The notes below the pieces were generated by a model. The model ran no database searches and was not told the DNA's origin. It was given only the letters and a program-made list of their open reading frames with translations. A stretch of DNA of 64,000 bases from Chitinispirillaceae bacterium. GTDB lineage: Bacteria > Fibrobacterota > Chitinivibrionia > Chitinivibrionales > Chitinispirillaceae. The position numbers were made by a program, and so were the translations under genes. This document shows positions 11,234-26,491 of this stretch, one piece after another (position 1 is the stretch's first letter; each line of letters begins with the position of its first letter). Where the stretch lies: NCBI GenBank assembly GCA_016929595.1, contig JAFGIN010000117.1, positions 1-64,000 on the forward strand. Direction: 5' to 3'.

Positions 11234-14200
11234 ATGAGAAAGGGGTTTAATGTGAAAACCAAAATGACCATCTATTGGATATATACATTTATCCTCGGTT
11301 TTTTACTCTTCTGCACCATTCAGGACGACAATGGGAATCCAGTTAATCCACAACAACCCCATACGGATATTATAACTGATCCCGTTAGTGTGCCGATAAT
11401 TTTTGCTTCAGCAGACAGCACCTATATCAAACAAGGTGATACACTTGCCATAATAACCCGGGTATTTGCGGATACATCCGGAGGCGACTCTCTTCAACCG
11501 CTCAGTTCAGCCAGAGTAACAGCTGTTGCAAACAGAGGCACCCTGATCAGAGATACACTCATAACAGATGCAAATGGACGGGCGCGTTTCCTGCTCACAG
11601 CATCTGAAAATGGACGTGTGGAAATAACATTCAAAACATCTACCACTGAACGCATCTTCCGACTGGAAGTTACCGATACCCCCGATCGCATCCAGAAACG
11701 AATAGAAATTACTCCCGGAAGATCAATAATCAAAGCAGATAATCAGGATACAACTACCATTTCTGTTTCAATAATAAACGAACTTCACAATCCCATTGCA
11801 GGTGAACTTGTTCAGTTTATTACAACATCCGGAGTCATTATTGGTGATGGATCCAACCCGAAAAATTCCGGGCAGAGCACAACTGACATTTATGGTATCG
11901 CCCGTGCTACCCTGCGAAGTGCAAATATCAATGATACTGCATTCATTACAGCATATGTGGTTTCAGATCAATCTCTCAGTGATGAAACGGATGTCGTTTT
12001 CAGAGGTATGAGTATCACGATTCAGGGAACCATGACAAATATGGTGATCAATGATACAACGCTTATCACAGCACGCCTTATGAATGCATCGGGAATTCCA
12101 GTTGTCAAATCACCGGTTTTTGTATCTTTTGGAAATAGCTCCACATCTAATCTCCGTTTTCTTACACGTGATACGATAACCAATTACGATGGCTACGCTT
12201 TTTTCAGAGTCCTCGCTGCTGGAAACGGAATGGATAACATGCTCTTTTCTGCAGCAGGAACAAATGCATCCCTCCAGATCAATGTGTCATCACTGAGATT
12301 AACCCTTGCAGCTGACAGAACTATACTTCAGACAAAAGACACCGATTCGGCCGTTGTTACTGCAACATTTTCCGATAACAGCGGTGCCCCTCTCAATGGC
12401 CGCATTATTACTCTTACACGTAACTACAAGACTGAAAAGGGGCTGGATACAACCGATATACTGAAATCTTCAACTGACGTTCTGGGAAAGTCCCGTTTTA
12501 CGGTCAAAGCACTTAGTTACGAGGGAATGATGAGGGTTGAAGCTGTTGGTTTTGATCCTGCTCAGGGGTATGCATCCGCTGATACCACAATTCAGTTTAT
12601 GACTACCAGAGTAATGACTGTCCGCGGCCCCGAATCAATCCCGGCTGACGGAGAAAGCAAGAAACCAATAACGGTCATCATCAAAAACAAAGGCGGAAAT
12701 CCCATCGTTGGAGATGTTGTAACGTTCACTTCAACGGCAGGTATAATACCCTCAAAAGCAAACACCGATGAAGACGGTCGGGCGATAGTTCAACTTACCA
12801 GTGACAGACGAAATATCAAGGCAATGGTAACAGCAACCCTCTTGAGTGATCCTTCAAAAACACAATCAATTGCAGTTGACTTCACTGGAGTTACCATCGA
12901 AGTATCAACCAACCCTCCAAGCATCAGCAGTGATGGGCGTGACACATCTCATGTTCTTATTACACTCGTAGATGCAGCAAAAAAACCTATCTCCGGCGAG
13001 CCGATCAACTTCTACAAACAACAGCTATCGACTACGATTCTGCAACTTGACTCAACAACCAGCAATAGCGGCGAAGCCCGATGCGTCGTGTTTGGAACCG
13101 GCATCGGTAGTGACACCATTAAAATTAGCGCCGCCGGGGCAAGCGGCTCTGCTACCATTAATTACTCGTCCAATAAAATCACTATTGATACTGCAGCCGG
13201 ACAGACATGTATTGCAGACAGTAGCGATTCCACACTCTTTTATGTAACCTACTTCAAAGGTGACAATGTAAGCAGAATTCCCAATGCCTCAGTCGAGATC
13301 TCTGCAACGGTTGGAAAGTTTGATACCGTATTTGCACGTCGATTTACAACAGATGCTAACGGTCAGGTAAGTTTTTATCTTAGAAATCCCCATTTTGCCA
13401 CCACTGCCACGATTTCTATCCTGGCTCATACCTCAACAGAATTAACAAGTCAGACATATAAGATCTATTTCAGAGCAAATGATGTAAGAAAAATACTCCT
13501 CACCGGAACCCCTGATGTAATTGCAACAGAAACCGGAAAAGCAAAAATAACTGCAATCGCCTTTGACTCTCTTGGCAATAGAGTGAATAATGCGCGGATT
13601 ACCTTTAATATTGTTAACGGACCCAGCGGCGGGGAATATCTTTCACCACCATCAGTGCTCACCGGAGATGATGGCTCAGCTCAAACCTACCTGGTTGCAG
13701 GCAAAACACCAAGTACATTCAAGCAGGTATGGATAACAGCAGGAACATTTACTTCAGTCAAATCTGATACGGCAAAATTTACTATTGCAGGACCTCCTGT
13801 TTACATAACTATCCGCACAAATGTACTTAAAGGAGAAAATCCCAATGATGGTACATTTGCACTTCCCTGCGCAGCGATTGTTACCGATATCAATGGTAAC
13901 CCGGTTGTAGATGGCACCAGTGTCACTTTCAGTCTCAAAATTTCTGCCTATAGAATGCCCTATCTCAGCCCGCACTGGTATGAAGAAATTGGTGAGAATA
14001 CAGCCTCATGTTATTGGGTAAGTGACAGCATATATAAGGTTTTCGTCTTTGAAGATTTCAACGATAATTACAAGTGCGACCCGGGTGAAGACAGAAATGG
14101 TGATGGAATAGCCAGCAGAGGTGAGGATATCAACGGAGATGGAAACTATCTGCGCGGTCCGGCATTTGAGGATATCAACAGGGACGGCATCAGGCAGTAC

Positions 14201-14680
14201 GACCTGCGTGTACCCGTTGAAGAAATTTACAGATGCTACGGAAGTCGAAAATTTGCAGACTTGAATAGCAATGGCAAGTGGGACCCTATCGAACCATTAT
14301 CACATTCATCCTACCAGCAGGCGTATAGAACGCTCCTGGCAGATTCAGCCTTCCACTTTTATCCGGCCATACGAAACGCAATTGATTCTGCAGCATTCGA
14401 TACTCTTGCCTATTACGACGCTCTCTATGAAAGCGGCCCGGGTTTTATCAGAGAATTAAGATGCTATGATCCTGATATAAATAATAATGGTGTTCCTGAC
14501 CCCAGTACTGCAGTCGCCATCACAAAGACAATCGAAACCAAGGATGGAAAAGCATTGAACAAGATTATTTATGGTCAAAGTGATGCCTTACGTATCGAGG
14601 TCATGATCTGGGCAGAATCACAGGGTGTTGTCACAAAAACACCCGAACAGATTTTCCTGCCAATCGTTTCAGATGAATAA
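11234..14680 (+). CDS. Ig-like (Big_1/invasin type) repeat surface protein with calcium-loop region
   Basis: A 1148-residue exported protein. The N-terminus has a membrane segment ending in FLLFC, which could be a non-canonical lipobox (Phe at -1). About eight repeats of roughly 95 residues follow from about residue 55 to 860, each with the invasin/intimin-type bacterial Ig pattern: a DGR/DTT start, a PISGE/PIVGD turn, then a TDANGRA-type motif and a T-rich final strand. After a ninth partial repeat, residues about 940-1080 hold at least five DxNxDG-like loops (DRNGDGIAS, DINGDGNYL, DINRDGIRQ, DLNSNGKWD, DINNNGVPD), which suggests calcium binding. Proteins like this act as stalks or adhesins at the cell surface. 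A strong AGAGAGG site precedes the ATG. The next gene, 15 bp away, encodes a probable outer-membrane barrel. Confidence 0.85.
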   Translation: MRKGFNVKTKMTIYWIYTFILGFLLFCTIQDDNGNPVNPQQPHTDIITDPVSVPIIFASADSTYIKQGDTLAIITRVFADTSGGDSLQPLSSARVTAVANRGTLIRDTLITDANGRARFLLTASENGRVEITFKTSTTERIFRLEVTDTPDRIQKRIEITPGRSIIKADNQDTTTISVSIINELHNPIAGELVQFITTSGVIIGDGSNPKNSGQSTTDIYGIARATLRSANINDTAFITAYVVSDQSLSDETDVVFRGMSITIQGTMTNMVINDTTLITARLMNASGIPVVKSPVFVSFGNSSTSNLRFLTRDTITNYDGYAFFRVLAAGNGMDNMLFSAAGTNASLQINVSSLRLTLAADRTILQTKDTDSAVVTATFSDNSGAPLNGRIITLTRNYKTEKGLDTTDILKSSTDVLGKSRFTVKALSYEGMMRVEAVGFDPAQGYASADTTIQFMTTRVMTVRGPESIPADGESKKPITVIIKNKGGNPIVGDVVTFTSTAGIIPSKANTDEDGRAIVQLTSDRRNIKAMVTATLLSDPSKTQSIAVDFTGVTIEVSTNPPSISSDGRDTSHVLITLVDAAKKPISGEPINFYKQQLSTTILQLDSTTSNSGEARCVVFGTGIGSDTIKISAAGASGSATINYSSNKITIDTAAGQTCIADSSDSTLFYVTYFKGDNVSRIPNASVEISATVGKFDTVFARRFTTDANGQVSFYLRNPHFATTATISILAHTSTELTSQTYKIYFRANDVRKILLTGTPDVIATETGKAKITAIAFDSLGNRVNNARITFNIVNGPSGGEYLSPPSVLTGDDGSAQTYLVAGKTPSTFKQVWITAGTFTSVKSDTAKFTIAGPPVYITIRTNVLKGENPNDGTFALPCAAIVTDINGNPVVDGTSVTFSLKISAYRMPYLSPHWYEEIGENTASCYWVSDSIYKVFVFEDFNDNYKCDPGEDRNGDGIASRGEDINGDGNYLRGPAFEDINRDGIRQYDLRVPVEEIYRCYGSRKFADLNSNGKWDPIEPLSHSSYQQAYRTLLADSAFHFYPAIRNAIDSAAFDTLAYYDALYESGPGFIRELRCYDPDINNNGVPDPSTAVAITKTIETKDGKALNKIIYGQSDALRIEVMIWAESQGVVTKTPEQIFLPIVSDE

Positions 14681-14695
14681 CAATGGAGATATATC

Positions 14696-15469
14696 GTGTT
14701 TAAAATACCTTCTATACTCATTTTTCTGGCTGTTAATGCTGTCTGTTCAAATCTTGGAAACCCGGCAGTTTCCATACCCCAGGCACGCCTTGCAATAGGA
14801 GCATCCTATCATGCAGGGGGATATACAATCACCAATCTGGAAATTCCATCTATTTTTAACCGCATCCATGCTCGCATTGAATACTCATTACTATCAAATG
14901 TCAGTATCGGCATTGATCTCGGAGCAACGCAGATCGAGGTCGACAACTACGCTATCAGTGCAGATACCTTTGCAATATTCCATGGAAAATACGGCTTTTC
15001 CGGAGGAGCCCATTTTAAAGCCTCTACCCCCTTTATCCTTAATAAGACTGTTGCATTTATCGGAATTGGCAGTGCAACAACGTTTTCATCAAAGAATGAA
15101 AGTAATGCTTTTTATGGTGGATTTGACGGTGCCGGTACCATCGGAGTGCAGTTTCATATTCCACGATTCGGATACATCTCTGCAGGACCGATGATATATA
15201 TGATTAAAGGAAAAAATAAAAGCTATGATGGAATCGAGAGCAGATATTGCAATGTAAACAACATCAGAGGCTGGCTTGCAATCGATTTTTTTCCTGACAT
15301 GAAAGAGATGAGTTCAAACAAACCATTTATAACACTTGAAATAACAGCATCACCAGCGGCAGATCTTTCGAAAAAAATCCCGTTACAGGAATTCAGTGTC
15401 TCAGTATGCATTGGTTCAGTATCAAAAAGACTCTTCGGGATCGAAAATGGAGTCGAATGGAAGCCTTAA
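14696..15469 (+). CDS. Predicted outer-membrane beta-barrel protein
   Basis: A 257-residue protein starting at GTG 14696 behind a GGAG site. The signal peptide (FKIPSILIFLAVNAVCS) precedes a mature sequence of alternating polar/hydrophobic strands: HARIEYSLLSNVSIGIDLGATQIEV, GFSGGAHFKAS, AFIGIGSATTF and YISAGPMIYMI. This is the look of an 8- to 12-strand outer-membrane barrel. It is 15 bp downstream of the Ig-repeat protein, so the two are probably co-transcribed and may work together at the outer membrane, for instance as anchor or partner. No specific family is recognised. Confidence 0.72.
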   Translation: MFKIPSILIFLAVNAVCSNLGNPAVSIPQARLAIGASYHAGGYTITNLEIPSIFNRIHARIEYSLLSNVSIGIDLGATQIEVDNYAISADTFAIFHGKYGFSGGAHFKASTPFILNKTVAFIGIGSATTFSSKNESNAFYGGFDGAGTIGVQFHIPRFGYISAGPMIYMIKGKNKSYDGIESRYCNVNNIRGWLAIDFFPDMKEMSSNKPFITLEITASPAADLSKKIPLQEFSVSVCIGSVSKRLFGIENGVEWKP

Positions 15470-15903: not shown

Positions 15904-16269
15904 TTAACCAAGGTGTTCAAGTACCTTGTCTCTGACTTCCGAAAAACTTATCGGCTTGTGAATAACATCATGGATCCCATCAAATCGCAGCAGATGTGGC
16001 TCCAAATCACCTTTCCAACTTGTTACGATAAAAAATTTGGTTCCACACCCCTGATGCTTAACCCAGCGGGCGATACTGCGCCCACCTAATTCCCGAACAC
16101 ACAAAGCAGCAAAAACAGCATCGTAAGAACTTCTTTTAAGCTGTTCAATCCCACCCTCAGCAGTTTCGGCAACCGTTACTTCGCAGCCTAAACGAGAGAG
16201 AGATTTCCGCAGGAGTTCCCTTAATACTGTATCATCATCAATGACAAGAACATGAAACATAGCTGACAT
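15904..16269 (-). CDS. Degenerate receiver-domain protein lacking the phospho-Asp
   Basis: A 121-residue stand-alone receiver fold. The acidic pocket is present (VIDDDTVLRELL, Asp11-13), and so are the switch Thr in IVTSWKG and the Lys in VIHKPISF. At the end of beta 3 the usual Asp is replaced: the sequence is YDAVFAALCVRELGG with Ala55 where the phospho-acceptor belongs. It therefore cannot be phosphorylated normally and probably works as a protein-interaction module. It lies about 295 bp downstream of, and in the same direction as, the receiver/ATPase fusion. The start is ATG 16269 or ATG 16260; neither has a strong ribosome site. Confidence 0.85.
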   Translation of the reverse strand: MSAMFHVLVIDDDTVLRELLRKSLSRLGCEVTVAETAEGGIEQLKRSSYDAVFAALCVRELGGRSIARWVKHQGCGTKFFIVTSWKGDLEPHLLRFDGIHDVIHKPISFSEVRDKVLEHLG

Positions 16270-16563: not shown

Positions 16564-17466
16564 TTACAACTCATGAATCAGAAGCGGTTTACGGGTAATG
16601 TTTTTATCACTGTCATGGTATTGGATTATAATACATTCCGTGCGCTTACCCGGATCGATATTGATAACCAGTCTATCAATTAACCTTCTCACAAGCATCA
16701 GCCCCCTGCCGTGCTCCTCACCAAGATCTTTATCACGATAATTATCAAGCCATTTCAAAGCTGCTTCTTTTTTTAAATTTCCCTGTGGATCTTCAACCGC
16801 AACACCGATTTTAAGATTGTCAACAGCCCATGAAACCTTAACAGCCTTCTCTGAAGGCACGACAAAATCTTCAGACCAAAGCTCACGGGGAACACCGGTC
16901 ATCTGAAGAACTCCATGAAAAAAAGCATTTGACACCAGTTCATCAATAGCAACTTCAAGATAAATGGTCCTTTGACTCACGGATAGCTGTGCAATTCGTG
17001 CGACTACATCTTTTGTCTGAGCATAGCTTTGAATAGAAAGGCTTTTTATCTTTGAACCAGGAAAAAAACGATTCAACCCAAAAATATCACCAGTAAGAAG
17101 CGATTTTACATATGTTGAAATCTCATCAAGGCTGAAACCGGCTCCCTTTACAATCACATTACCGATATTATGCTCACGTACTGAAGAAATATAGCTGTCT
17201 ACATCGTAACTGGTCATCAGAATATGTTTTACCGTTGGAAATCTGTTCTCTAATATTCTGAACAGCTCAAAACCATCCATCATCGGCATCTGGATATCGG
17301 AAATTACAAGATCAGGAATCTTTTCTTCAATTTCATCTAAAGCAACAACACCATTTTCAGCAGTTCTTACATTATAACCCTCTGAGCTAAGCAAATCATA
17401 CAATACCTTGCAGATGGTCTTGTCGTCATCAACAATCAGAATCTCAAATTTTTTCTGCTTGCTCAC
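16564..17466 (-). CDS. Receiver fused to anti-sigma-factor-like HATPase (RsbW type)
   Basis: A 300-residue soluble protein. Residues about 8-122 form a receiver with Asp57 in VISDIQMPMMDG and Lys107 in VIVKGAG (the usual Pro after Lys is missing). Residues about 150-285 form a HATPase of the RsbW/SpoIIAB class rather than a histidine kinase: the N box is AIDELVSNAFFHG, a G box is EDPQGNL and the lid end is HGRGLMLVRRLIDRLV, with no HisKA helix. Such ATPases phosphorylate STAS-domain anti-anti-sigma proteins on Ser or bind a sigma factor. This fusion would let phosphorelay signals control a partner switch. STAS or STAS-like proteins are encoded at 17795 (divergent) and 25790. Confidence 0.88.
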   Translation of the reverse strand: MSKQKKFEILIVDDDKTICKVLYDLLSSEGYNVRTAENGVVALDEIEEKIPDLVISDIQMPMMDGFELFRILENRFPTVKHILMTSYDVDSYISSVREHNIGNVIVKGAGFSLDEISTYVKSLLTGDIFGLNRFFPGSKIKSLSIQSYAQTKDVVARIAQLSVSQRTIYLEVAIDELVSNAFFHGVLQMTGVPRELWSEDFVVPSEKAVKVSWAVDNLKIGVAVEDPQGNLKKEAALKWLDNYRDKDLGEEHGRGLMLVRRLIDRLVINIDPGKRTECIIIQYHDSDKNITRKPLLIHEL

Positions 17467-17794
17467 TTTAAATATTGTACCTGAAAAAAGACTGAACTCT
17501 AAATTAGAACTAACTGTATCCCGGATTTTGCAACTTACCCCGATTCTGCAAAATGCCTCATATTGATGCGGTATGGAAATAATATATATGTTAGACCGGA
17601 ATGTTATTAAAAGTTTTTGTTCTAAATATTGTCAGAGAGGGGTATTCTCAGGAGGGAAACCGCGAAGAAGGCACATCTATTAATCGTTTAATATTTTAAT
17701 CAAATACTGTATAATCAGGCTATATGAGACCATAAGATACACGTGTAACATCGTACAAGTGTATTGCAATTTTCAATACTGTTTGAGGAAACTG
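17467..17794. other. Divergent intergenic region
   Basis: These 328 bases separate the minus-strand receiver/ATPase gene from the plus-strand membrane STAS-like gene and must hold both promoters. No frame, hairpin or repeat stands out. A GTG at 17759 opens the same frame as the downstream gene but lacks a ribosome site. Confidence 0.4.
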
Positions 17795-18439
17795 ATGCAC
17801 CCTGTAAGCCAGCTGATTATTGCTGCCCTTATATTAGCTATCATCGTGGGTATTTTTGCTGTTGTTGAGTTGTTCCATTTGCTTTCACTGTCTTCGAATA
17901 TTTCCAAACTCGAATCAATTATTGAAAAAAAATCTCAGGAGTTCGACCAGTTCCGCCGTGAAAGAACCACATCCATTCAATCCCACTCATTAGTACCCCA
18001 GGAAACAGATTACATTGAACCGCCCCCTGAAAGACTCGATAATTCTGACCAGATCCAGGTAATCAGAAACGTCGATGGAACATTCAAAGACACAAGCCTG
18101 ATCGATGCAAATGGCCGGGAAGTAACACCTTTCCAACAAAATACACCAGCACAATATCAATACATTACATTATATTTATACTCAAACGTATCTAAAGACG
18201 CAGATTTCAGCAGCCTGTGGAGCACTTTGAATATGCATCTTAAATCAGATACCCCGGTCGCTGTTACAACCGATTTCACAGGTATAGAATTTATCTACGA
18301 AAACGAAATCCGGTATCTTCAGGAAATCGTAAGAATTGTTGAAAGCAGACAAGGCAGTATGGTCTTTACAAACTGTTCACATGATGTAATTGCCATGATG
18401 AACTCTTATCCCCGATTATTATCCAGAATCAGATATTGA
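17795..18439 (+). CDS. Membrane-anchored protein with STAS-like C-terminal domain
   Basis: A 214-residue protein starting at ATG 17795, with GAGGAA four bases upstream. One membrane span (residues about 7-29) is followed by a short coiled coil (about 34-60), a polar linker, and a C-terminal domain of about 90 residues. That domain's order of elements (TPVAVTTDFTGIEFI, a helix LQEIVRIVESRQG, SMVFTNCSHDVIAMM) resembles a STAS fold. The Ser that is normally phosphorylated is not present; the loop reads IYENEIR. The call is tentative because the similarity is structural and judged by eye. It lies 6 bp before tsaD and divergent from the receiver/ATPase gene, which may be functionally related. Confidence 0.5.
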   Translation: MHPVSQLIIAALILAIIVGIFAVVELFHLLSLSSNISKLESIIEKKSQEFDQFRRERTTSIQSHSLVPQETDYIEPPPERLDNSDQIQVIRNVDGTFKDTSLIDANGREVTPFQQNTPAQYQYITLYLYSNVSKDADFSSLWSTLNMHLKSDTPVAVTTDFTGIEFIYENEIRYLQEIVRIVESRQGSMVFTNCSHDVIAMMNSYPRLLSRIRY

Positions 18440-18445
18440 CAGACT

Positions 18446-19435
18446 ATGATTACTCTCGGCATCGAATCCTCCTGTGATGAAACATCTATTGCACTCCTTG
18501 AAGATGAAAGAATCATCAGGAATAAAATCTTTTCACAGCAGGAACATTCACTATTTGGAGGTGTGGTTCCTGAAATCGCCTCCAGAGCCCATTTGGATAA
18601 AATAGACCGCCTTACCATCTCTGTTCTAAACGAAGCATCAATTAAAATCGGGGATATCGATTTGATTTCAGTTACTGACAGCCCCGGCCTCGCAGGGGCC
18701 TTACTCGTAGGTATCAGTTTCGCACTTGGAATTCATACTGCATCAGGAATCCCGATTACCGGTATAAACCACCTCGAAGGACACATCTGTTCTGTTTTCT
18801 TTGAGCACCCGCAACTCAGGTATCCGTTTCTTGCACTGGTTGTATCGGGTGGGCACACCGCAATATATAAAATTATTGCTACCGGACAATACGAGTGTCT
18901 TGGCGAAACTGTCGATGATGCAGCCGGAGAGGCATTCGATAAAGTCGGAAAACTTCTGGGCTTTGCCTACCCCGCCGGAAGAGCTATTGAACAGACCGCT
19001 GCAAGCGTTGAAAATTCATCAAACCCTATTTCATTCCCTATTGCTCAGGTTTCAAAAATTCCCGGCCTCAATTTCAGCTTCTCCGGACTTAAAACCGCTG
19101 TCAAATATTATACATCATCTAAAGATGATGCGTTTATCCTGGATAACCGCCCCCGGATATGCGCAGCATTCCAGAATGCTGTAATCGAATCACTCGTGAA
19201 CAACCTCTGGAAAGCATCTGAGCAAACTGGAATTTCTGATGTAGCGCTTGTCGGCGGTGTGGCTTGCAACGGAGCGCTACGCTCTGCCTTAAAAAACAGA
19301 TTTAATAACAGGGTATACTTTCCAATACCCAGCCTTTGTACCGATAATGCTGCGATGATCGCACTTGCCGGATATTACCGAAACCAAAACGGGTTGAGTA
19401 GATTTCCTCGTCTCGATCCCTCATCTTCTCTTTAA
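18446..19435 (+). CDS. tsaD: tRNA N6-adenosine threonylcarbamoyltransferase TsaD
   Basis: A 329-residue TsaD/Kae1/YgjD protein. It transfers the threonylcarbamoyl group from threonylcarbamoyl-AMP to A37 of ANN-decoding tRNAs, giving t6A, in the cytoplasm with TsaB and TsaE. The start LGIESSCDETSIA is the family signature, and the metal-binding HxxxH is His109-His113 in GINHLEGHICS. The ATP-binding segments LVVSGGHTAIY, GEAFDKVGKLLG and VGGVACNGALR are all present. The length is normal. It follows the membrane protein by 6 bp. MtaB, which acts on t6A, is encoded at 24460-25803. Confidence 0.97.
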   Translation: MITLGIESSCDETSIALLEDERIIRNKIFSQQEHSLFGGVVPEIASRAHLDKIDRLTISVLNEASIKIGDIDLISVTDSPGLAGALLVGISFALGIHTASGIPITGINHLEGHICSVFFEHPQLRYPFLALVVSGGHTAIYKIIATGQYECLGETVDDAAGEAFDKVGKLLGFAYPAGRAIEQTAASVENSSNPISFPIAQVSKIPGLNFSFSGLKTAVKYYTSSKDDAFILDNRPRICAAFQNAVIESLVNNLWKASEQTGISDVALVGGVACNGALRSALKNRFNNRVYFPIPSLCTDNAAMIALAGYYRNQNGLSRFPRLDPSSSL

Positions 19436-24459: not shown

Positions 24460-25803
24460 TCAATAAACAGGTATCGCCGGACAGTAACGGCCATTTTCAG
24501 AACCGTTTATTTTTACATCCAGCCACGAATTATGCCGCGCACGTCCAGTATCAACCAGCACATGCAGATAGTTTGTGGTAAGCCCACGAACCGGCTCTTC
24601 AGATTCTACAATTATGCGATGGGAAATTCTACTACAACGATGTAAAAATTCTTTCCTTGAGGAAGCAATGATATCCCTCACGCGTTCACTTCTCTCATTT
24701 TTTACATTATCTGCAATTTTATCCGGCAAGGATTCAGCAGCAGTTCCCGGCCGGGATGAAAACCTGAACACATGAGCGTACGAGAACCCCATTTCGCTCA
24801 CCATATCAAGAAGATATCTGAAATGGTTTTCTGTTTCCCCGGGAAAACCAACAATGATATCAACCCCAAGTCCAGCACAGGGGAATTTTTTACGAAACTG
24901 TTTCAAAAGTGCTATTGTCTCCAGACAATCGGTATCCCCCCGTCCCATCATAGCCAATATTTCTCTGTCAAAATGCTGCATGCTGACATGAAGATGATCG
25001 CAGAGGCGTGGATGAGATCCGATCAGTTCAAGCAGTTCCACCGTGAGATCCCGCGGATCAAGGGAACTCAAACGCACCCTGTAATCCCCATTTATGCTGA
25101 TAACATCCCTCAGTAATTGCAAAAACCCGTTATTATCATCGTGAAACTGCCCGATATGAGTACCAGTCAGCACAATCTCCTTATACCCTTTTTCGATTGC
25201 AGCCCTGCACAAATCAACGACACTGTCACATCTCCAGGAACGCGCAGGTCCCCTCAGTGAAGGAACTATACAGTAGGAACAGTGGAAATTACACCCTTCC
25301 TGGATCTTAACAGAAAAACGGGTACGAAAATTTTTCTCCGGTGAAAGTAGATCCTGAGCACTGATCTCAAAAGTATTCTCCGGATTGTACTCATCAAAGC
25401 AGGCATGAAAAATACCGCCATCAGGCTTTTGTGCTAAAAGACGCGGAATAATCTGCTTGAATGTATTGCCCACAACCCAGTGAACAGAAGGTAAAGCCGC
25501 CAGACTTTGCGGTTGCTGCTGTGCAAGACAGCCAGTGACCAGAATACGTGCACCGGGAGCCTTCACCGCAAGCGAGTGAAGCATCCTGCGGGTTTTGGAT
25601 TCGGTGTGCGATGTAACAGCACAGGTATTAACAATGATAATATCCGCTTCAGTTATTTCATCGGTGAATTCACAACCGGTCAGCTGTAATTGTGCCTTTA
25701 ATGTAAGAAGTTCTTCCTGATTAGTCCTGCATCCTACTGATTTTAAAAAAATGGTAAAGCCTTCTTCTCCCGCACTACCGGAAGAGATCTCAGTTCCATC
25801 CAT
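24460..25803 (-). CDS. mtaB: tRNA methylthiotransferase MtaB
   Basis: A 447-residue radical-SAM enzyme that converts t6A37 to 2-methylthio-t6A in tRNA. The N-terminal UPF0004 domain supplies cysteines for one iron-sulfur cluster (Cys25 in KSVGCRTNQEE and a Cys in NTCAVTSH). The radical-SAM cluster motif is GCNFHCSYCIVPS, and a C-terminal TRAM-like region follows. FLKSVGCRTNQ and RGPARSW are typical of MtaB rather than MiaB. The start at ATG 25803, with GAGAG upstream, gives the normal family length; a longer frame would run deep into the STAS gene. The two genes still overlap by 14 bp. TsaD, which makes the t6A substrate, is encoded 5 kb away. Confidence 0.93.
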   Translation of the reverse strand: MDGTEISSGSAGEEGFTIFLKSVGCRTNQEELLTLKAQLQLTGCEFTDEITEADIIIVNTCAVTSHTESKTRRMLHSLAVKAPGARILVTGCLAQQQPQSLAALPSVHWVVGNTFKQIIPRLLAQKPDGGIFHACFDEYNPENTFEISAQDLLSPEKNFRTRFSVKIQEGCNFHCSYCIVPSLRGPARSWRCDSVVDLCRAAIEKGYKEIVLTGTHIGQFHDDNNGFLQLLRDVISINGDYRVRLSSLDPRDLTVELLELIGSHPRLCDHLHVSMQHFDREILAMMGRGDTDCLETIALLKQFRKKFPCAGLGVDIIVGFPGETENHFRYLLDMVSEMGFSYAHVFRFSSRPGTAAESLPDKIADNVKNERSERVRDIIASSRKEFLHRCSRISHRIIVESEEPVRGLTTNYLHVLVDTGRARHNSWLDVKINGSENGRYCPAIPVY

Positions 25804-26491
25804 CAATAGCCATCTCTCGTGTGTCAAAAATTGGAATGATCTGGTCGATACATAAGGTTTTAAAGAGGTCACTCACTATGTAATTGGCACCACATATTCT
25901 TAATGCCCCACCAGTTCCTTTAAGCAGGAGATTCATATTGAGAACTGCGCCAAGACTCAGGCTGTCAAAAAAAGTCAGTTCTTCCATATCAATCAATATC
26001 TTTTTATAATCTGATAAAGTCAGAAGAAACTGCTGTTTAAAATAGCTTGACCCAATCGGGTGGTTCATGACACCTCCGAGCATGAAAATACATGTATCTC
26101 CTCTGAATTCTTTTTGAATCGTCAGTTTAATATCTACAGCCTGCTGAAACAGGTCCACATCAGCCTGCCGGACCCCGCCATTTTTCTCGATTGAAAAAAT
26201 TCTGTCCAGCCCTGTATCGGAGAGCATCTGAAGAATATCCCTGTCCGGATTCCTCAAAATCATTTCACCATCTACAGACTTAAGTTCTTTTGTCAAACTG
26301 ACAAGCATACCTATACCCGAGCTATCAATCATATTGCATGATGAAAAATCAAAAATGAAATAATTGGCATCACCCTTACGTGCCCGATCAAAAACATCAT
26401 TCATAATGGTTTTAACATCAGGACCGGCAAACTGAGCCGGAAGAGTGACAACCACCCTGTTTCCTGTAATTGAAAGTGCATTGAGGTTCAT
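25790..26491 (-). CDS. Tandem STAS domain protein (anti-anti-sigma-like)
   Basis: A 233-residue soluble protein of two STAS domains. The first (about 5-105) has the classic phospho-Ser loop FDFSSCNMIDSSGIGMLVSL (Ser57/Ser58). The second (about 120-225) has IDMEELTFFDSLSLGAVL with a Ser in the equivalent loop. SpoIIAA-type STAS proteins are phosphorylated on this Ser by RsbW-type ATPases and release sigma factors when unphosphorylated. The receiver/ATPase protein encoded at 16564-17466 is a candidate kinase. The gene lies 8 bp after mutL and overlaps mtaB by 14 bp, so it is embedded in a DNA-repair/tRNA operon. Confidence 0.87.
   Translation of the reverse strand: MNLNALSITGNRVVVTLPAQFAGPDVKTIMNDVFDRARKGDANYFIFDFSSCNMIDSSGIGMLVSLTKELKSVDGEMILRNPDRDILQMLSDTGLDRIFSIEKNGGVRQADVDLFQQAVDIKLTIQKEFRGDTCIFMLGGVMNHPIGSSYFKQQFLLTLSDYKKILIDMEELTFFDSLSLGAVLNMNLLLKGTGGALRICGANYIVSDLFKTLCIDQIIPIFDTREMAIDGWN

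Follow-up and report, generated by a model that had tools for sequence, protein, structure and literature searches.

A TciR/LvrC-type response regulator with an RsbW/SpoIIAB-like ATPase half, encoded between a STAS-like protein and a pseudo-receiver in Chitinispirillaceae

The gene at positions 16564 to 17466 (minus strand, GTG start) of a 64,000-nucleotide stretch of DNA from a Chitinispirillaceae bacterium (contig JAFGIN010000117.1; the whole stretch is hereafter called the window) encodes a response regulator of 300 amino acids. It is a genuine signalling protein, in which a two-component receiver is joined to an RsbW/SpoIIAB-like ATPase, and we regard its layout and family assignment as virtually certain. 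The combination of a receiver (REC) with an RsbW-like domain is already known: the regulator consists of these two domains only and is of the TciR/LvrC type. New is the local variant, namely a family-specific C-terminal tail, an altered G1 box and a setting in which a membrane STAS-like protein and a pseudo-receiver are the neighbours. We read the protein as one that takes its input from a kinase, whose receiver gates the ATPase and whose output is the binding of another protein; to this reading as a whole, with no partner named, we assign a probability of about 0.65.

The receiver domain (Pfam Response_reg, E = 4.8e-23, 81.9 bits) covers residues 9–109 (17140–17442, minus strand) and is complete in the window, with the acidic pair, the phospho-acceptor D57, T85 and K107. 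The usual aromatic switch position, occupied by F100 in LvrC according to the available text of PMC13269768, holds V in the window regulator, and K107 is followed by G, not P; a Y-T switch of the LvrC type may therefore not apply. The ATPase half (HATPase_c_2/Bergerat, residues 159–275, 16642–16992, minus strand) scores 36 bits against a Pfam cut-off of 27.4 (E = 7.9e-9), whereas ordinary HATPase_c reaches 14.7 bits, under its cut-off of 26.4. The Pfam scan of the 300 residues gives neither HisKA nor a PP2C phosphatase domain of the kind found in switch proteins such as SypE or HsbR. The ATP-site residues E176, N180, D226, G229, G253, G255 and T276 are invariant in 38 aligned members, and in the G1 box of the window regulator the first Gly of D-x-G is replaced by Q (D-P-Q-G-N). 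Between the domains lies a conserved linker (GDIFGLNRF, residues 127–135, 17062–17088, minus strand), with G130 invariant and F129 and Y134 nearly invariant among 36 family members. The C-terminal tail (residues 290–300, 16567–16599, minus strand) contains KPLLIHEL, with a predicted beta strand at 295–299; across the 36–38 sequences aligned P294 is invariant and K293, I297 and E299 are nearly so. The AlphaFold2 model is confident in both domains (mean pLDDT 91, pTM 0.89), and the linker, the C-terminal strand and the two domains form one confidently predicted unit in it.

Full-length homologues, collinear over both domains at 41–61% identity, occur in 15 other genomes, each next to the same tsaD-like gene. 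Together with the two-domain paralogues in most genomes of the order, these syntenic homologues show that the open reading frame is neither a chance frame nor a mis-joined one. The initial annotation had proposed exactly such a fusion, with an ATPase of the anti-sigma-kinase type and without HisKA; profile searches and structure prediction bear this out and place the ATPase in no different GHKL class.

The same annotation had taken the design to be undescribed. It is not, since TciR and LvrC have the same layout. TciR of Vogesella indigofera combines a receiver with an RsbW-like domain and is paired with a histidine kinase; deletions of tciK and of tciR each abolish pigment, and the authors retrieved 100 proteins of the same layout (PMC12826045). 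Such proteins were noted in a census of 2006, as cited in the available part of that article. In its kinase pairing TciR resembles two paralogous subfamilies described below (sub3 and sub4), whose genes follow a kinase gene. The subfamily of the window regulator (sub1) differs from TciR, here compared by description rather than by alignment, in being without an adjacent kinase and in having a family-specific tail and linker.

LvrC of Leptospira (PDB 9qih, also labelled SenB) likewise has a receiver followed by a Bergerat/RsbW-like domain in about 300 amino acids; its crystal structure with ADP has been reported, and it is phosphorylated by LvrB (PMC13269768, available text). That text proposes, without demonstrating it, the sequestration of a sigma factor that it leaves unnamed, and it mentions no STAS-like or pseudo-receiver neighbour. 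LvrC is the best full-length PDB match of the regulator model in Foldseek (E = 9e-14, prob 1.0), at a low global TM-score of 0.36–0.37, so that the domain arrangement differs between model and crystal. Identity is 18–19%, and the profile match ends before the C-terminal tail of the regulator. For the ATPase half alone, profile matches rank 9qih first and then SpoIIAB (1til, 1l0o, 1th8).

The other systems compared share less with the regulator. RsbW and SpoIIAB belong to the same HATPase_c_2 class and have the N-box E-x-x-x-N-A and the G-x-G box, but they lack a receiver and carry a canonical D-x-G-x-G where the regulator has D-P-Q-G-N. SypE of Vibrio fischeri also unites a receiver and an RsbW-like kinase in one protein and acts on a STAS protein, SypA, with the acceptor Ser56 (PMC10120452); it differs by a different domain order and an additional PP2C phosphatase. 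Proteins from SAR324 and Spirochaete genomes (L177, L178, L180 and L181; 292–303 amino acids) have the same layout, and the two that were scanned (L177 and L180) pass the cut-off for both Pfam domains. Unlike the window family they have a Gly-rich G1 box (DEGKGF, DQGGGF) in place of D-x-x-G-x-L-x-K, and neither the KPLxIxEL tail nor the GDIFGL linker.

Full-length homologues of the regulator occur in all 24 genomes of its taxonomic family and in most of the remaining order; in one family of the order (f7) the E-values are at receiver level only. Of 168 genomes of the phylum, 114 have a match at 1e-15, many of these matches being weak (about 1e-16, for example in the large genus g24) and possibly due to the receiver only, and 4 of 38 genomes from outside groups matched the ATPase half. 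A search of genome contigs with the single protein gave matches mainly confined to the receiver and no near full-length relative. The family comprises at least four subfamilies and shares the tail K-P-L-x-I-x-E-L, drawn as a strand by the model. In a tree of the ATPase domain the 16 members of sub1 stand apart from sub2, sub3 and sub4 with 100/100 support. Three of the 16 sub1 orthologues (in G007, G010 and G016) have lost the receiver Asp, at two separate places in the tree (G007 and the G010/G016 clade) and with an intact ATP site; phosphorylation is thus not always needed in sub1. We note two further sets of sequences. A myxobacterial protein from Archangium (L176, 1444–2415) has no Pfam match, aligns with the regulator family, carries the unusual D-x-x-G-x-L-x-K/R box and resembles a degenerate receiver over its N-terminal half. 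Members in G154–G159 and G044 (e.g. G156:C59:2018–2854) have open frames of 334–365 amino acids and match only from about residue 35–65 to residue 299; their receiver seems to have a replaced or diverged beginning.

The evidence for a kinase input comes from the paralogues. In 9 of 12 sub3 and sub4 loci a histidine kinase gene overlaps the regulator gene or lies at most 66 bp upstream, and in both kinases scanned Pfam finds HisKA, HATPase_c and PAS. As these regulator genes directly follow kinase genes, histidine kinases very likely provide the input to members of the family. No histidine kinase gene lies beside the window regulator, for which such an input is likely by analogy with the paralogues. 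Sub3 is followed by genes for S-adenosylmethionine decarboxylase, spermidine synthase and an ornithine/DAP-type decarboxylase, so that a regulator of this layout is a candidate controller of polyamine synthesis there. An example is L118 (G000:C94, 9332–10273), where the sub3 gene overlaps the preceding PAS-HisKA kinase gene by 4 bp; behind it come a speD-like gene, two genes resembling spermidine synthase and one for a decarboxylase, and most sub3 loci share this arrangement. Sub2 has a pseudouridine synthase gene on one side and a divergent comEC-like gene on the other, as in L117 (G000:C170, 5270–11213), and this setting is kept in nearly all sub2 loci.

With these paralogues as a guide, a histidine kinase would phosphorylate D57, which may alter the packing of the receiver on the ATPase. 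The ATPase would then bind a protein partner, and possibly phosphorylate it on Ser, rather than act through DNA binding; an output by protein binding seems to us quite likely.

In the window the regulator gene is flanked by two genes of interest. Divergently oriented across an intergenic region of 292 bp (17467–17758) lies the gene of the STAS-like protein (17759–18439, plus strand), which has an N-terminal membrane or coiled-coil helix, a disordered linker and a C-terminal STAS-like domain (residues 131–226). Downstream lies the gene of a pseudo-receiver of 121 amino acids (15904–16269, minus strand; Pfam E = 2.9e-13), whose phospho-Asp is replaced by Ala (FAALCVR). A tsaD-like gene (18446–19435, plus strand; identified by reading, not by profile) serves as syntenic anchor and begins 6 bp behind the STAS-like gene, the two genes being likely members of one operon. 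Sub1 lies beside the tsaD-like gene in all 16 genomes that have it, from three families of the order. The STAS-like gene adjoins it in 14 of the 16 loci (it is not recognisable in G003 and G005) and the pseudo-receiver in 15, with those of G003, G005 and G007 overlain by longer antisense frames and counted through profile searches. The neighbourhood reported initially is thus real, and both its STAS-like membrane protein and its degenerate receiver are conserved across genera.

The C-terminal domain of 17759–18439 falls below the Pfam cut-off for STAS (E = 0.012) but has a STAS fold according to model and profile comparison: it is modelled at a pLDDT of about 95, its top Foldseek matches include SpoIIAA, the prestin STAS domain, RsbS and RsbV (E = 0.01–0.02, prob 0.99–1.0), and hhalign pairs it with the double-STAS family (E = 2.3e-4, probability 44%), aligning I-D-S-S-G with I-Y-E-N-E. 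The phospho-acceptor Ser is lost, DSSG having become YENE in the window, and Ser is absent at this position in 18 of 18 aligned sequences. The best PDB sequence match, the STAS domain of YtvA, has N-E-Q at the acceptor place (E = 0.015). In the pseudo-receiver family the Asp position holds A, S or P, except in two distant copies in G035 (L138, 3253–3639; L174, 4488–4859), which keep Asp and lie away from the sub1 locus.

Both neighbours also occur without the regulator. In four genomes (G024, G025, G028 and G030) the same block has the STAS-like gene adjoining the pseudo-receiver at a distance of 166–294 bp, with the regulator absent; in G031 and G033 the pseudo-receiver is present, the STAS-like gene is not recognised and sub1 was not found. 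The best family members in these six genomes score as sub2 or sub4. The pair thus does not depend on the regulator, which either came to be inserted between the two members or was lost. Two possible marks of dependence on the regulator were rejected: the pseudo-receiver does not keep Asp where the regulator is absent, the residue still being Ala in all six genomes, and the linker motif IQIVRNVRG of the STAS-like protein is present without the regulator as well.

What, then, would the regulator bind? The likeliest partner at this locus would be the membrane-anchored STAS-like protein: the regulator would dock on it at the membrane without being able to phosphorylate it, and the Asp-less receiver would act as adaptor; we consider this partnership possible, with the odds leaning against it. 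The protein distances for the regulator correlate with those for the STAS-like protein beyond what TsaD and FtsY account for (partial r 0.58, permutation p 0.003, 12 genomes), which is weak support, as about 20 comparisons were made and the p-value would be marginal after correction. Neither the STAS domain by itself (partial r 0.10, p 0.29) nor the pseudo-receiver (partial r 0.26, p 0.15) gave such a signal. The covariation and the retention of all three neighbours across three families, in 16, 14 and 15 of the 16 loci, speak against the view that the chromosomal block is simply stable and that the regulator lies by chance between two bystanders. Yet the whole block (with FtsY, a CRP-like protein, a permease, the TsaD-like protein and others) is conserved, and the pair persists without the regulator in four genomes and the pseudo-receiver alone in two, so that mere bystanders are an explanation to be kept in mind, if one short of even odds. 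The spacing of −4 to +12 bp between STAS-like and tsaD-like genes in 12 of 14 loci, a tighter tie than that to the regulator, also speaks against the partnership. Of the control circuit suggested initially the conserved neighbourhood stands, and a local circuit of regulator, STAS-like protein and pseudo-receiver is plausible; since the pair occurs without the regulator, such a circuit would be at most an add-on to an independent pair. A stronger version, a partner switch that has abandoned Ser phosphorylation, in which the receiver-gated ATPase docks on a STAS-like protein no longer open to phosphorylation, the Asp-less receiver takes part as third component and the signal is carried by nucleotide state and binding instead of Ser-phosphate, strikes us as improbable.

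The Ser-kinase partner switch of the initial annotation is borne out in the class of the ATPase. At the adjacent protein the acceptor Ser is lost in 18 of 18 sequences, so that a classic phosphorylation of the neighbouring STAS-like protein is unlikely. The substrate could instead be a distant STAS protein, with reversal by a SpoIIE phosphatase. The catalytic Glu and Asn are kept in all members, the genome holds 24 STAS stretches and 8 SpoIIE phosphatases, and a double-STAS protein encoded in the window (25790–26491, minus strand; Pfam E = 8e-27) keeps DSSG in domain 1 (DSLS in domain 2), with Ser or Thr at the acceptor position of domain 1 in 9 of 10 sequences. No Ser-bearing STAS gene, however, is specifically linked to the regulator. 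The double-STAS gene, initially named as the substrate, lies about 8 kb away, with a MiaB-like gene and two HDOD genes as its regular neighbours across genomes, is present in G031, a genome in which no sub1 member turned up, and its product covaries with the regulator no more than expected (partial r 0.21, p 0.19); it was rejected as a specifically linked substrate, and we consider a Ser kinase acting on a distant STAS protein unlikely. No likelier is a receiver-controlled anti-sigma factor, in which the ATPase would sequester a sigma factor and receiver phosphorylation would free or trap it. LvrC, the closest solved relative, is so interpreted, and Sigma70_r2 has 23 matches in the genome; for LvrC the available text of PMC13269768 names no sigma target, and the nearest Sigma70_r2 match on the contig of the window lies at about 36.3 kb, some 19 kb from the regulator. 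Binding of a protein partner under receiver control, the partner left unnamed, is the form in which we keep the preferred reading.

Regulators that combine a receiver with an RsbW-like domain are widespread; the two studied examples that we found, TciR and LvrC, were described very recently, and neither has a known direct target. The present family has several paralogues per genome in sharply conserved and differing neighbourhoods (a kinase with polyamine genes; comEC with a pseudouridine synthase; a membrane STAS-like protein with a pseudo-receiver), which therefore offer concrete partner candidates. The window locus is a case in which the phospho-acceptors of the neighbours are lost while the ATP site is kept. 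The same block encodes, at 11234–14680, a large and repetitive protein that looks secreted and has an acidic region rich in DxNxDG close to its end; in many genomes the block holds such a protein, usually together with one of about 260 amino acids, here encoded at 14696–15469.
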